A stretch of 39,043 bases of DNA, taken from positions 1 to 39,043 of the forward strand of contig JAGRJP010000043.1 in assembly GCA_020442665.1 (NCBI GenBank). Reading direction: 5' to 3'. This document shows, piece by piece, positions 2,054 through 14,508 of this stretch. The translations under genes were made by a program, and so were the position numbers. How positions within the stretch are numbered: position 1 is the first letter of the stretch; every line of letters begins with the position of its first letter. The notes beneath the pieces were generated by a model, which saw nothing but the letters and a program-made list of their open reading frames with translations, was not told the DNA's origin and did not search any database. This DNA is from Lysobacterales bacterium (lineage in GTDB: Bacteria > Pseudomonadota > Gammaproteobacteria > Xanthomonadales > Marinicellaceae).

Positions 2054-3046
2054 ATGCAAAAATATCCGTTAACACGAAAAAGAAGACTCAGATACACCCA
2101 ATCAATCAGAGATTTAGCCGCTGAAAATACATTGAATTCATCAGATTTAATCTGGCCGGTGTTTGTACTCGAAGGTGAAAATCGCAGAGAATCCATCAAG
2201 TCCATGCCCGGCGTTTATCGTTTGTCTCAGGATTTATTAATTGAGAAACTCGCAAAATTATATTCGATGGGTTTGAAAGCCGTGGCGTTGTTTCCGGTAG
2301 TGACCGCCGAAAAGAAATCGGAACAAGCAGAGGAAGCATATAACTCTGACGGTTTAGTGCAAAGAAGCATTCGTAAAATCAAATCGGAATTGCCTGAAAT
2401 TTTAGTGATTTCTGATATTGCGCTCGATCCGTTTACAATTCATGGACAAGATGGATTGATTGATGAAAGTGGCTATGTTTTGAATGATGAAACAGTCGAA
2501 GTTCTTTGCAAACAAGCGGTTTCACATGCCAGAGCCGGTGTAGATATTGTCGCTCCGTCAGATATGATGGACGGACGGATTCTGAAAGTTCGTGAAGCGT
2601 TGGAATCCAATGGTTATATCAACACTTCGATTCTGGCTTATTCGGCAAAGTATGCCAGTTGTTTTTACGGACCTTTCCGTGATGCGGTGGGTTCATCCGG
2701 AAATTTGGGTAAAAGCACCAAGGAAAACTATCAGATGAATCCTGCCAATGGCAAAGAGGCTTTGGATGAAATCGCTATGGATATTGATGAAGGAGCAGAT
2801 ATGGTGATGGTTAAACCCGGCTTGCCTTATCTGGATATTATTAAATCGGCATCTGAAACATTTAACACACCGGTTTTTGCCTATCAGGTGAGTGGCGAGT
2901 ATGCGATGCTGCAAAGTGCGATAGACAATGGTTTTTTAGACGAGAAAAAAGCGATTCTTGAAAGTTTGTTGTGTTTCAAAAGAGCGGGATGCGATGCTAT
3001 TCTGACTTATTATGCCGATCGGGTTTTAGAATATCTCAATGAGTAA
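2054..3046 (+). CDS. hemB: Delta-aminolevulinic acid dehydratase (porphobilinogen synthase)
   Basis: HemB joins two 5-aminolevulinate molecules into porphobilinogen, the second step of tetrapyrrole synthesis from ALA, in the cytoplasm. The 330 residues match the family length. The two active-site lysines are seen at K199 (AYSAKYASCFYGPFRDA) and K254 (MVMVKPGLPY), the latter forming the Schiff base. The metal region reads DIALDPFTIHGQDG (residues 121-134): it has aspartates and no cysteine cluster, the pattern of magnesium-type enzymes such as that of Pseudomonas rather than zinc-type ones. The start has almost no Shine-Dalgarno sequence. The 3' end overlaps aroE by 8 nt, implying translational coupling. 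Next to ccmEF it supports heme supply, although it is on the other strand. Confidence 0.97.
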   Translation: MQKYPLTRKRRLRYTQSIRDLAAENTLNSSDLIWPVFVLEGENRRESIKSMPGVYRLSQDLLIEKLAKLYSMGLKAVALFPVVTAEKKSEQAEEAYNSDGLVQRSIRKIKSELPEILVISDIALDPFTIHGQDGLIDESGYVLNDETVEVLCKQAVSHARAGVDIVAPSDMMDGRILKVREALESNGYINTSILAYSAKYASCFYGPFRDAVGSSGNLGKSTKENYQMNPANGKEALDEIAMDIDEGADMVMVKPGLPYLDIIKSASETFNTPVFAYQVSGEYAMLQSAIDNGFLDEKKAILESLLCFKRAGCDAILTYYADRVLEYLNE

Positions 3047-3851
3047 AACCTTTAAACTGGCATTATTCGGCAATCCGGTGAGTCACAGCTTATCGCCTAA
3101 GATTCATCAGAATTTTGCCGAACAGTTCGATTTAAAAATTCAATATGATTTAATTCAGGTTGAGTCAGAAAATCTACACCAAACGGTGATTGATTTCTCC
3201 AAAAATGGCGGACACGGAGCTAATGTGACACTTCCGCATAAACAGCAAGTGATTGATTCTATTGAAAATATTTCTGAAACAGCGAAACAAGCTCATGCTG
3301 TCAATACTCTATATCTGGATGTCGAAGGACAAATTTGCGGAGAAAATACCGATGGAATCGGTTTTATTAATGATTTATCCAACCGTTGTCATATTGACTG
3401 TAACGGCAAGAATATATTGATTCTGGGAGCCGGAGGAGCTGCACAGGGAATTGTCCCTGAAATCATGAAAAACAAGCCAAAGTCTTTAGTTATAACCAAC
3501 AGAAGTATCGAAAAGGCAGAGAAAATAGCTGTTTCCAATAATTCAAAAGCTATGACTTTCGAACAACTCAAAGATTTCAATCAATCATTCGATCTTATTA
3601 TTCACGCCAGTTCCCTCGGCCACAAAGGACAAACTCTCAAGTTTAAACAACAACACATCCATTCAAAAACTCAGGGTTACGACCTGAGCTACGGCAAAGC
3701 TGCACAACCATTTCTGGATTTTTGTGACTCAATGAAAATTCAATCATACGACGGCATTGGAATGCTTATCGAACAGGCTGCCGCAGCTTTTGAGATTTGG
3801 TTTGGGGTTAAGCCTGAAACACATACAATTTTTCAAAAACTGGAAAAATAG
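3039..3851 (+). CDS. aroE: Shikimate dehydrogenase
   Basis: AroE reduces 3-dehydroshikimate to shikimate with NADPH in the aromatic amino acid pathway. The 270-residue protein has the full set of signatures: GNPVSHSLSPKIH for shikimate binding near residue 11, NVTLPHKQQV with the catalytic lysine near 68, NTDGIGF with the catalytic aspartate near 104, the nucleotide loop ILGAGGAAQG near 127, and the C-terminal GIGMLIEQAAAAFEIWFG. It begins inside the last codons of hemB and is the last gene of the unit. The hemB-aroE linkage is a known arrangement in some gammaproteobacteria. Confidence 0.96.
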   Translation: MSKTFKLALFGNPVSHSLSPKIHQNFAEQFDLKIQYDLIQVESENLHQTVIDFSKNGGHGANVTLPHKQQVIDSIENISETAKQAHAVNTLYLDVEGQICGENTDGIGFINDLSNRCHIDCNGKNILILGAGGAAQGIVPEIMKNKPKSLVITNRSIEKAEKIAVSNNSKAMTFEQLKDFNQSFDLIIHASSLGHKGQTLKFKQQHIHSKTQGYDLSYGKAAQPFLDFCDSMKIQSYDGIGMLIEQAAAAFEIWFGVKPETHTIFQKLEK

Positions 3852-3905: not shown

Positions 3906-3985
3906 GAGTTGCCGTATGAACTTTTCAATAATTGCTTTTTCATACAAAAACACTTATTCTTCGTTTTATACGAAATAAAGATTAA

Positions 3986-4007
3986 CATATAGCCAAAGAT
4001 GTTAGCC
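3986..4007 (+). other. attC-like half site at the left edge of the cassette
   Basis: The stretch CATATAGCC-AAAGAT-GTTAGCC closely resembles the right end of the full site after the cassette, CACATAGCC-AAACC-GTTAATCC. GTTAGCC at 4001-4007 fits the integron core GTTRRRY except at one position. It therefore looks like the 3' half of an attC into which, or next to which, the cassette was inserted. No matching 5' half could be found between aroE and this point. Confidence 0.6.
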
Positions 4008-5353
4008 ACAACCATTAAAAACGACAAATGAAACTAATTGCCGATTCAAAAACATTTGAAAAAGAGTTTATAAGGTTACTTAAATCTTATAACGAGTATT
4101 ACTGGTTGACTGCTTGGGCAAGTCCATCATCTTTGGCTTTTGAGAAATTGGATAAGTTCAGAGATAGAATTAAAAAAATAATTGTTGGGATTCATTTCTA
4201 TCAGACTCATCCCAATTTTATAGAAAACTTCTTAGATTTAAGCACCGTTCGCTATATAAAACAGCCAGAAGGTACTTTTCATCCCAAATTATATCTTTTT
4301 TATAATTCAAAATTCGACTGGGAAATATTAACGGGAAGTGCCAATTTCACAGGAGCAGCATTTAATGTCAATACTGAGATTTCAACACTAATTAATTCTA
4401 AAAACAAGAAAGCAAATAAAATTCTTTCCGAGGTACTTGAAATCGTTGACTCAACATGGAATGATTCAACTCTTTTTGACAAGAAAGAATTAAAGAATTA
4501 TCGAAAAGTTTGGAAAAACCACAGACCCAAAATTAACAGCCTATCTGGAGTCTATGGAAATTGTAAAAATAAAAGGACAAAAAAGAGTAAACCTCTTTAT
4601 TTAGTTCCAGTTGCAAATATGGACTGGAAACAGTTCATAATTAGAGTGAATGAAGAAAAACATCATTCTTTAACATCTCGACTAAAAGTCCTTAAGATTG
4701 CCAGAACATCTTTTGAAAAAGTTGAGTCATTCAAATACATGAGCGATGATGAAAGAAAATTTATTGCGGGCATTCCAAACAGGCTTAAAGTTGACAATGA
4801 TGTGTACTGGGGTTACTTTGGGAGCATGCAAGGAGCTGGAAAATTTAAAAACCGAATTGGAGAAAATGATGAAATTATTTCTAACGCTCTTGATGAAATA
4901 CCTCTATCTGGTCAAATTACAAAGATTCATTTTCAAAGATTTCTAAAAAAATATACATCTGTATTTCCAGGAATCTATTTAGGCACAGCCACTCGTTTAT
5001 TAGCAATGAAAAGACCAGATGTTTTTGTATGTCTCGACAGTAAAAACAAATCAGAATTATGCAAAGATTTTGGAATTGTTAAGTCAGGACTTAATTATGA
5101 CCGATATTGGGATGATATTATTGAAAGAATCTATGATTCTGATTGGTGGATTAATCCTGAACCAAAAGATAAAACGGAAAGATTAATTTGCGATTCAAGA
5201 GCTGCATTTCTTGACTCGCTTTATTATGAGGAATAAAACAGCAGTGGCTAACAAAAGCTATATGTAATGTGGGGTACAGCCGGGTAATTCAACCGCATTT
5301 CTCCGTGGCAAAAACGCCAATTCGTCTTTCCCGCACGCCACATAGCCAAACCG
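4002..5353 (+). mobile_element. Integron-like gene cassette with one gene
   Basis: The predicted cassette runs from the T after the G of GTTAGCC (4001) to the G of GTTAATC (5353). The decisive point is that the first bases of the cassette, TTAGCC, are the exact complement of the box GGCTAAC (5246-5252) lying just behind the gene. This is expected only if the two ends were once joined in a circle to form one folded attC. The element holds one ORF in the usual orientation, with the recombination site downstream. No integrase gene is in the window, so this would be an orphan cassette or the remnant of an array. Removing it would join 4001 directly to 5354. Confidence 0.65.
4028..5236 (+). CDS. 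Phospholipase D-like domain protein, cassette cargo
   Basis: A 402-residue protein with two parts. Residues 1-140 resemble a single PLD/HKD nuclease-type domain: FHPKLYLF places His85 and Lys87 in an HxK pair, and LTGSANFTGAAFNVNTE (from 101) gives the following GSxN and acidic residue. Similar one-motif proteins are found among restriction enzymes of the NgoFVII/BfiI type and in defence-related nucleases; they work as dimers. Residues 170-402 form a second domain I do not recognise, ending in a segment rich in Trp and Asp (YDRYWDDII, SDWW). There is no signal peptide or membrane segment, so it should be cytoplasmic. No methyltransferase or partner gene accompanies it. The start has no clear ribosome binding site. 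A nuclease or defence role is inference. Confidence 0.7.
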   Translation: MKLIADSKTFEKEFIRLLKSYNEYYWLTAWASPSSLAFEKLDKFRDRIKKIIVGIHFYQTHPNFIENFLDLSTVRYIKQPEGTFHPKLYLFYNSKFDWEILTGSANFTGAAFNVNTEISTLINSKNKKANKILSEVLEIVDSTWNDSTLFDKKELKNYRKVWKNHRPKINSLSGVYGNCKNKRTKKSKPLYLVPVANMDWKQFIIRVNEEKHHSLTSRLKVLKIARTSFEKVESFKYMSDDERKFIAGIPNRLKVDNDVYWGYFGSMQGAGKFKNRIGENDEIISNALDEIPLSGQITKIHFQRFLKKYTSVFPGIYLGTATRLLAMKRPDVFVCLDSKNKSELCKDFGIVKSGLNYDRYWDDIIERIYDSDWWINPEPKDKTERLICDSRAAFLDSLYYEE

Positions 5354-5359
5354 TTAATC
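5246..5359 (+). other. attC-like recombination site
   Basis: The 114-nt site has the layout of an integron attC: R'' GGCTAAC (5246-5252), spacer AAAA, L'' GCTAT (5257-5261), a central region with imperfect inverted sequences including TGTGG/CCACA, L' ATAGC (5342-5346), spacer CAAACC, and R' beginning with G at 5353. The length is within the known range for attC sites. R'' pairs perfectly with the cassette's own left end rather than with the present right flank, as expected after insertion. Confidence 0.65.
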
Positions 5360-13125: not shown

Positions 13126-14508
13126 ATGAATACCGGTACTATCGTATTATTCTTATTGATTTTCGCAGGCTTTAATTATTTTATAAAGCATCGCAAAATC
13201 TATGCTGTTTACAGAGTAAACAGAAAAAAGCAGTCCAACAAAATGACTTTGCCAAAATACTTTGGTTATGTCGCTTCGATGTGGTCGTTAATTCCCGCTT
13301 TGCTCGTTCTTTTAGTCATTGAAATCATTGATGAACCGTTACTCAAAAGTAACATTACCAATTATGTTCATGCTGAAAATATAGAAATTGGACAAGATTT
13401 GGACTTGTATCTGAATGATATTAAAAATATTAAAACAGATAACATAAAGGATGTTGACCCCATCAAATTAAAAGTTCACGAGCATTATCAAAATTTTGAA
13501 ACGCTGATATCCAAAGCTAAAACAATTATTGTGATTTCATTGGCGGTATTGATGACAATATTTGGTTTCAAAAAAGTCACAATCAACACGCCGGCACGGG
13601 TTTATTTTGAAAAAGTCATTGAAATTATTCTGCTGCTAGCTGCAACAATTGCTATTTTGACAACCGTTGGAATTGTTCTGTCTGTTTTATTTGAGTCTTT
13701 ACGGTTTTTCGGAGAAGTACCAATTCTGGACTTTATGTTTGGAACGGAATGGTCACCGCAAACAGCGATTCGTAGTGATCAGGTTGGTTCTTCAGCAGCA
13801 TTTGGTGCTGTCCCGTTATTTGTAGGAACCATGTTAATTTCCGCAGTTGCGTTGTTTGTTTCCGTTCCGCTTGGATTGATGAGTGCGATATTTTTATCCG
13901 AATATGCGTCATCAAAATTCAGATCATTTGCCAAACCAGTATTGGAAATTCTGGCCGGAATTCCAACCGTTGTTTACGGTTTCTTCGCAGCATTGACCGT
14001 TGCTCCTTTTATACGTGAGCTCGGAACATCAATGGGGCTTTCTGTAGCTTCTGAAAGTGCCTTGGCAGCCGGTGTGGTTATGGGAATAATGATTATTCCT
14101 TTTGTTTCATCGCTGGCTGATGATGTAATTTCCGCCGTTCCAAATGCTATGCGTGAGGGGTCGCTCGGGTTAGGTGCAACCAAGTCTGAAACAATCATCA
14201 AAGTGCTTATTCCAGCCGCATTGCCCGGAATTGTTGGTGGTGTGTTATTGGCGGCTTCCCGTGCTATTGGTGAAACTATGATTGTAGTGATGGCGGCGGG
14301 TTTGGCAGCAAATCTAACTGTGAATCCTTTGGAAGCAGTTACAACGGTTACTGTGCAAATTGTAACATTACTGACAGGTGATCAGGAGTTTGATAGTGCC
14401 AAAACATTAGCGGCATTTGCTCTAGGGTTAATGCTTTTCGTAACAACTTTGATATTAAATGTCATCGCATTGCATGTGGTCAGAAAATACAGAGAACAGT
14501 ATGATTAG
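13126..14508 (+). CDS. pstC: Phosphate ABC transporter permease PstC
   Basis: One of the two membrane subunits of the high-affinity phosphate importer. The 460-residue protein is longer than E. coli PstC (about 320) because of an N-terminal part with two or three extra helices and a polar stretch (about residues 75-125). The transport domain follows: FVSVPLGLMSAIFLSEYAS, ILAGIPTVVYGFFAALTVAPF, and the EAA loop in REGSLGLGATKSETIIKVLIPAALPGIVGG, which contacts PstB. The start codon has no evident Shine-Dalgarno sequence. The 3' end overlaps pstA by 8 nt. Confidence 0.93.
   Translation: MNTGTIVLFLLIFAGFNYFIKHRKIYAVYRVNRKKQSNKMTLPKYFGYVASMWSLIPALLVLLVIEIIDEPLLKSNITNYVHAENIEIGQDLDLYLNDIKNIKTDNIKDVDPIKLKVHEHYQNFETLISKAKTIIVISLAVLMTIFGFKKVTINTPARVYFEKVIEIILLLAATIAILTTVGIVLSVLFESLRFFGEVPILDFMFGTEWSPQTAIRSDQVGSSAAFGAVPLFVGTMLISAVALFVSVPLGLMSAIFLSEYASSKFRSFAKPVLEILAGIPTVVYGFFAALTVAPFIRELGTSMGLSVASESALAAGVVMGIMIIPFVSSLADDVISAVPNAMREGSLGLGATKSETIIKVLIPAALPGIVGGVLLAASRAIGETMIVVMAAGLAANLTVNPLEAVTTVTVQIVTLLTGDQEFDSAKTLAAFALGLMLFVTTLILNVIALHVVRKYREQYD

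Follow-up and report, generated by a model that had tools for sequence, protein, structure and literature searches.

The integron integrase IntI is defined, and located in genomes, by a specific additional domain that contains the I2 helix (PMC9668308, PMC9024848, PMC7790495). The helix is held to be essential, having made an integron integrase of a Xer-like enzyme and permitted the use of single-stranded hairpins while averting a lethal second exchange of strands; IntI1 loses its function when the helix is deleted, and it is said to be absent from all other proteins (PMC7790495). The locus described here lies in a stretch of 39,043 nucleotides from a Lysobacterales bacterium (contig JAGRJP010000043.1), the whole of which we call the window. 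Together with its relatives it resembles an integron in its divergent integrase, in an attI with a G|TT junction, and in cassettes whose attC sites carry R'', L'', L' and R' boxes and which begin with the complement of their R''. It differs in that the platform integrase lacks the IntI-specific domain and its I2 helix, and in that the covariance model R1, described below, sets its site family apart from the canonical attCs of the genus.

Other described systems share some of these features. XerA, XerC and XerD have the same domain layout as the platform integrase and likewise no I2; in contrast to them, however, the platform integrase adjoins a cassette array and an attI. Integrase-less remnants of integrons are known as CALIN, which under the current defaults of IntegronFinder have at least two attC sites and no intI (PMC9024848), whereas the window has a single attC and the genome a single R1 match. 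Sites resembling attC that stand without an integrase are also carried by phages (Qi et al. 2023, PMC9892861), and one of the two attCs of Polaribacter phage P12002L was recombined with attI1 by IntI1 (PMC9892861). The P12002L sites look like ours by eye, although R1 scores nothing significant on that phage (17.5 bits). A single cassette that stands outside an array and is joined at G|TT also recalls insertion at attG sites (Loot et al. 2024); as far as such insertion is described in PMC11023631, the recipient is an unrelated genomic site, whereas the flank in the window is the remnant of a platform. From the comparisons set out below, we consider the segment to be very probably what remains, after decay, of an integron-like platform that formerly stood complete at the same spot, and whose recombinase would have lacked the feature by which IntI is defined.

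The cassette and its attC-like site

An earlier note on this DNA, made from the letters alone, had proposed an integron-type cassette recombined at G|TT and followed by a 114-nt site with R'', L'', L' and R' boxes in order and spacers of 4 and 6 nt. The boxes are present where it had placed them (Table 1), reading R'' GGCTAAC, a 4-nt spacer, GCTATATG, CATAGC, a 6-nt spacer and R' GTTAATC. The complementarity of the cassette start to R'' is longer than had been claimed, and extends over 9/9 positions (GTTAGCCAC, 4001-4009, with GTGGCTAAC, 5244-5252). Position 4001 joined to 5354 would form a 9-bp hairpin with G|TT (GATTAACAT-n10-ATGTTAATC), which could be a product of chance.

Table 1. Features of the cassette locus, in window coordinates.
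Feature	Position	Strand	Evidence or remark
aroE (shikimate dehydrogenase)	3039..3851	+	last codons overlap integrase remnant
Integrase pseudogene, 5' remnant, ~35 codons	3839..3943	-	start codon 3943-3941; DNA alignment
attI, distal half, 40 bp	3955..3994	+	weight matrix 33.4 bits
attI core remainder, ends ATG|TT	3995..4001	+	comparison with sister species
Gene cassette, 1352 bp	4002..5353	+	boundaries G|TT; arrays of sister species and Bacteroidota have the same layout
PLD-family protein, 402 aa; N-terminal domain resembles NgoFVII-type restriction nucleases	4028..5236	+	RE_NgoFVII 27.3 bits, cut-off 23.8
attC-like site, 114 nt	5246..5359	+ (covariance model reads minus strand)	R1 39.4 bits, E 1.1e-5 in 110 kb
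R' half in right flank (TTAATC)	5354..5359	+	complementary to GATTAA at 3980-3985; chance possible

Shuffling yields ~1.3 instances per window of complementary 9-bp cassette ends combined with 7-bp arms of the empty site, and looser versions of the boundary complementarity are frequent by chance. When a 5-bp L stem is added, the expectation is 0.027 per 39-kb window, and the single place in the real window that combines all three features is the cassette locus. Boundary complementarity by itself is weak evidence and is not decisive; the comparative evidence carries the case. The sizeable chance rate of complementarity alone is what would recommend a reading in which the boxes merely happen to flank an ordinary gene, but this is refuted by three independent results given below (the covariance match, the attI matrix and the integrase remnant), and is in our estimation exceedingly improbable.

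The window site folds no better than its shuffled versions (z 0.04, and 0.1 to -0.9 in a second run), which is in keeping with decay; the corresponding values for seven attCs from arrays are -1.6 to -4.0 on the better strand. The palindromes also formally allow a different cassette, at 3986-5251, with a full attC as its recipient, but the attI on the left and the orientation of the arrays favour 4002-5353.

Remnants of an integrase and of attI in the left flank

The 5' part of an integrase gene, broken by a frameshift and two in-frame stops (..RQLRIENYS*ATV*NDSSALKLFFQF..), is fused to the end of aroE. It is the place in the whole window to which the integrase genes of sister species align best, and six of these genes score 39-54.5 there in DNA alignment against shuffle maxima of 22.5-28. 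Between this remnant and the cassette lies the distal half of an attI, found with a weight matrix derived from seven attI sites; relative to its score, the runner-up in the window reaches 11.3 bits and the best place in a 145 kb control 11.2, and a variant of the matrix gives 32.4 bits at the same position against a background maximum of 20.4. An attI-like score of 20.4 bits with the variant matrix, in L012, was unconvincing when read and was rejected. Compared with the attI of the sister species G002, that of the window is ~25 bp shorter, and what it lacks is the core preceding G|TT.

The integrase remnant, the attI remnant and the G|TT of the cassette thus stand side by side, which argues that a platform decayed in place and that the cassette was not put into a foreign site. 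The earlier note's reading as an integron-type cassette joined at G|TT is borne out, while its suggestions of an orphan insertion at a secondary site and of an integrase-poor mode of dispersal are contradicted by what adjoins the cassette on the left. Its statement that there is no integrase here is correct for an intact local gene and overlooks both the 5' remnant and two canonical intI genes on other contigs. The right-end pattern that it saw repeated in the left flank is exact for ATAGCCAAAnnnGTTA (3989-4004), although most of this is attI sequence (TAACATATAGCC).

The two canonical genes were found in the genome assembly to which the window belongs (a single assembly of 360 contigs and 2.86 Mb); they exceed the curated cut-off and are closely similar to one another. 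The copy on C7 (L038:9926-14000) is adjoined by cassettes whose ordinary attCs differ from the window site, and the copy on C150 (L039:13-1131) is at the contig edge. The array on C7 also contains, twice, a MITE-like repeat of ~260 bp with inverted ends GGAGCTAACCTG...CAGGTTAGCTCC (L038:12728-12988 and 13615-13880).

With two intI genes in the genome, one of them beside cassettes with different attCs, it is conceivable that an ordinary IntI of the host inserted the cassette at a secondary, attG-like genomic site; the joined flanks form a hairpin with G|TT, and their 9-bp empty-site palindrome would fit such an event. The left flank, however, consists of an attI and the 5' remnant of the gene for a different integrase, and R1 has no match among the canonical attCs of the genus; we regard this origin as improbable.

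In the nearest relative, G004, aroE is likewise beside a gene for a gamma-carbonic anhydrase. The interval between them is occupied by an unrelated 265-aa gene (L009:692-1489), and may therefore be a hotspot; an empty site was not found in the relatives.

Intact platforms in sister species

The platform that we propose to have decayed in the window is intact elsewhere in the genus. In G008 an R1 match sits in a cassette array that is read away from a 279-aa tyrosine recombinase, and three of the cassettes have a start that pairs fully or almost fully with the R'' of the same cassette (GTTACCCA/TGGGTAAC, 8/8; GTTACCAAC/GTGGGTAAC, 8/9; GTTAGCAAAC/GTTTGCCAAC, 9/10), the cassettes having attCs with R'', L'', L' and R' boxes. 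Homologous integrases, 81-90% identical, are encoded in G002, G003, G009 and G010 and in G019, which belongs to another genus; a search of the window's own genome for an intact homologue gave none at 1e-30. Upstream of the integrases, ~75 bp are conserved in five species up to CGACG|TT and are divergent beyond it, as expected of an attI to which a different first cassette is joined in each species. An attI beside an integrase, with cassettes joined at G|TT, is accordingly present intact in five species and as a remnant in the window. In G003 the same type of attI is joined at G|TT to a cassette encoding a cytosine methyltransferase and an NgoFVII-type restriction enzyme, behind which lies an attC of the window's R1 type (44.9 bits).

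The family of attC-like sites

A pattern taken from the window site has matches on 12 viral contigs, in which the boxes are the same and the loops vary. The covariance model R1 was built from 14 sites on viral contigs with the window left out, and over the 2.86-Mb window genome its sole match is the window site (Table 1). Within the genus R1 has two further matches, in G003 and G008 (one site each), and it gave no match to the canonical attCs that adjoin ordinary intI genes there. Several Bacteroidota arrays are matched as well, and there, as in the window, every match is antisense to the cassette genes. The AACAAAAGCTATA...ATAGCCAAACCGTT frame, which the earlier note had named for orphan insertions in other bacteria, does recur elsewhere. 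A search of Rfam returned nothing convincing, phage and plasmid records gave no match to the site in blastn, and the exact site pattern is absent from 395 Bacteroidota genomes because the L boxes vary, which makes the integrase the better probe. Scanning for attC by simple box patterns gave too much noise and was dropped.

Many of the viral contigs (L059-L070 and L071-L147) carry intergenic hairpins that resemble attachment sites, AACGGTTTGGCTATG...TATAGC..TGTTA, and at some sites the 3' arm lies within the start of the next ORF. Compared with those of bacterial arrays, the viral sites are inverted relative to their genes in 12/12 full-pattern matches. The presence of the same boxes on viral contigs raises the thought that, even at a platform relic, the cassette was brought by a phage or other element and was not captured by the local integrase. 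This is quite improbable in our judgement, as the viral sites lie in the opposite orientation to their genes and the attI remnant to which the cassette is joined at G|TT belongs to the platform itself.

An integrase without the I2 helix

In an alignment with IntI of the same genus and with the host XerD, the integrases of the sister species and of Bacteroidota lack the ~30-residue insertion (..AKKYPNADKEFKWQYLFP) in which the I2 helix of IntI lies; the comparison concerns these intact relatives, since the window keeps just the first ~35 integrase codons. With the IntI model TIGR02249 the integrases score 198-212 bits, under the curated cut-off of 265. The best NCBIfam match is the XerA-type model NF040815 (229.5 bits, cut-off 220), which is unspecific in that the host XerD scores 238, and the best match among solved structures is XerA (5hxy). 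In a tree the integrase stands apart from both XerC and XerD of the host. We found no description of integrons without the I2 insertion in the open-access literature searched, the coverage of which was partial.

Related platforms in Bacteroidota

At a threshold of at least 277 bits, the integrase has matches in 11/395 sampled Bacteroidota genomes (~3%). A larger set of 111/395 carriers, obtained at E 1e-50, was rejected by an array test: 7/9 of the nearest integrase loci fetched parse as cassette arrays (at least one cassette with matching ends) as opposed to 1/10 of the more distant ones, which are mostly other recombinases, and the carrier count is therefore 11. Altogether 20 cassette pairs with matching ends were found, against 3 in reversed sequence, and the longest chain, in L240, comprises five consecutive cassettes. 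The strand opposite to the genes (the bottom strand) folds more stably in 6/7 array sites, as it does in canonical attCs. A nearly identical site, GTGGCTGGGCTAAGTAC...TACTTAGCCCAGCCAC, recurs in two of the arrays (L237 and L241) and could be either an inserted element or an attC that is itself mobile.

In the tree, integrases from the genus of the window are nested with two from Bacteroidota, which suggests that the integrase passed from Bacteroidota to this genus.

The cargo gene

The PLD-family protein of the cassette has weak similarity to defence nucleases. Its nearest relative, 69% identical, is also in cassette form, in a Bacteroidales MAG, where the PLD cassette and an attC-like site are followed by a cassette resembling the potassium-transport genes TrkH/TrkA (L047:1-4371), the ends of which match over 9/9 positions (GTTGTGTGC/GCACACAAC). 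A distant homologue is plasmid-borne and lies near an annotated DNA methyltransferase. An NgoFVII-type restriction endonuclease combines an N-terminal PLD domain with a B3-like domain at the C terminus and is accompanied by a methyltransferase. Pfam identified no C-terminal B3-like domain in the window protein, there is no methyltransferase gene within its cassette, and the structure predicted by AlphaFold has a pLDDT of 35 and was set aside. A nuclease or defence role for this cargo is plausible.

Discussion

From the left, the proposed platform presents the 5' end of a divergent tyrosine-recombinase gene, its attI, one presumably captured cassette with the PLD gene, and the attC of that cassette. 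In intact platforms the recombinase presumably takes up circular cassettes by recombining them with attI at G|TT. The attC, an imperfect palindrome of ~60-160 nt with the boxes R'', L'', L' and R', probably serves as a folded hairpin, because R'' and R', and likewise L'' and L', are complementary across loops of tens of bases. In the window the integrase would have been lost to a deletion that brought its 5' part up against the end of aroE, ~25 bp would have gone from the attI core, and the cassette would have been left stranded.

Beyond the window, we lean towards the view that such platforms form a separate class of integrons without I2, which would be native to Bacteroidota, would capture cassettes through hairpin attCs, and would have passed to the window's lineage, of which the window keeps a relic. 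On this same view, the reliance of integron finders on the IntI-specific domain may explain why the class has escaped notice. A survey of complete genomes found hardly any complete integrons in Bacteroidetes (PMC9024848), in contrast to the ~3% of sampled Bacteroidota that have close relatives of this integrase. Part of the cargo of the platforms resembles phage defence, as seen in the restriction-modification pair and in the nuclease-like PLD gene of the window. Natural platforms that lack I2 and yet possess an attI and arrays of attCs would represent either an ancestral state or a second solution, and with them the origin of integrons would become testable.
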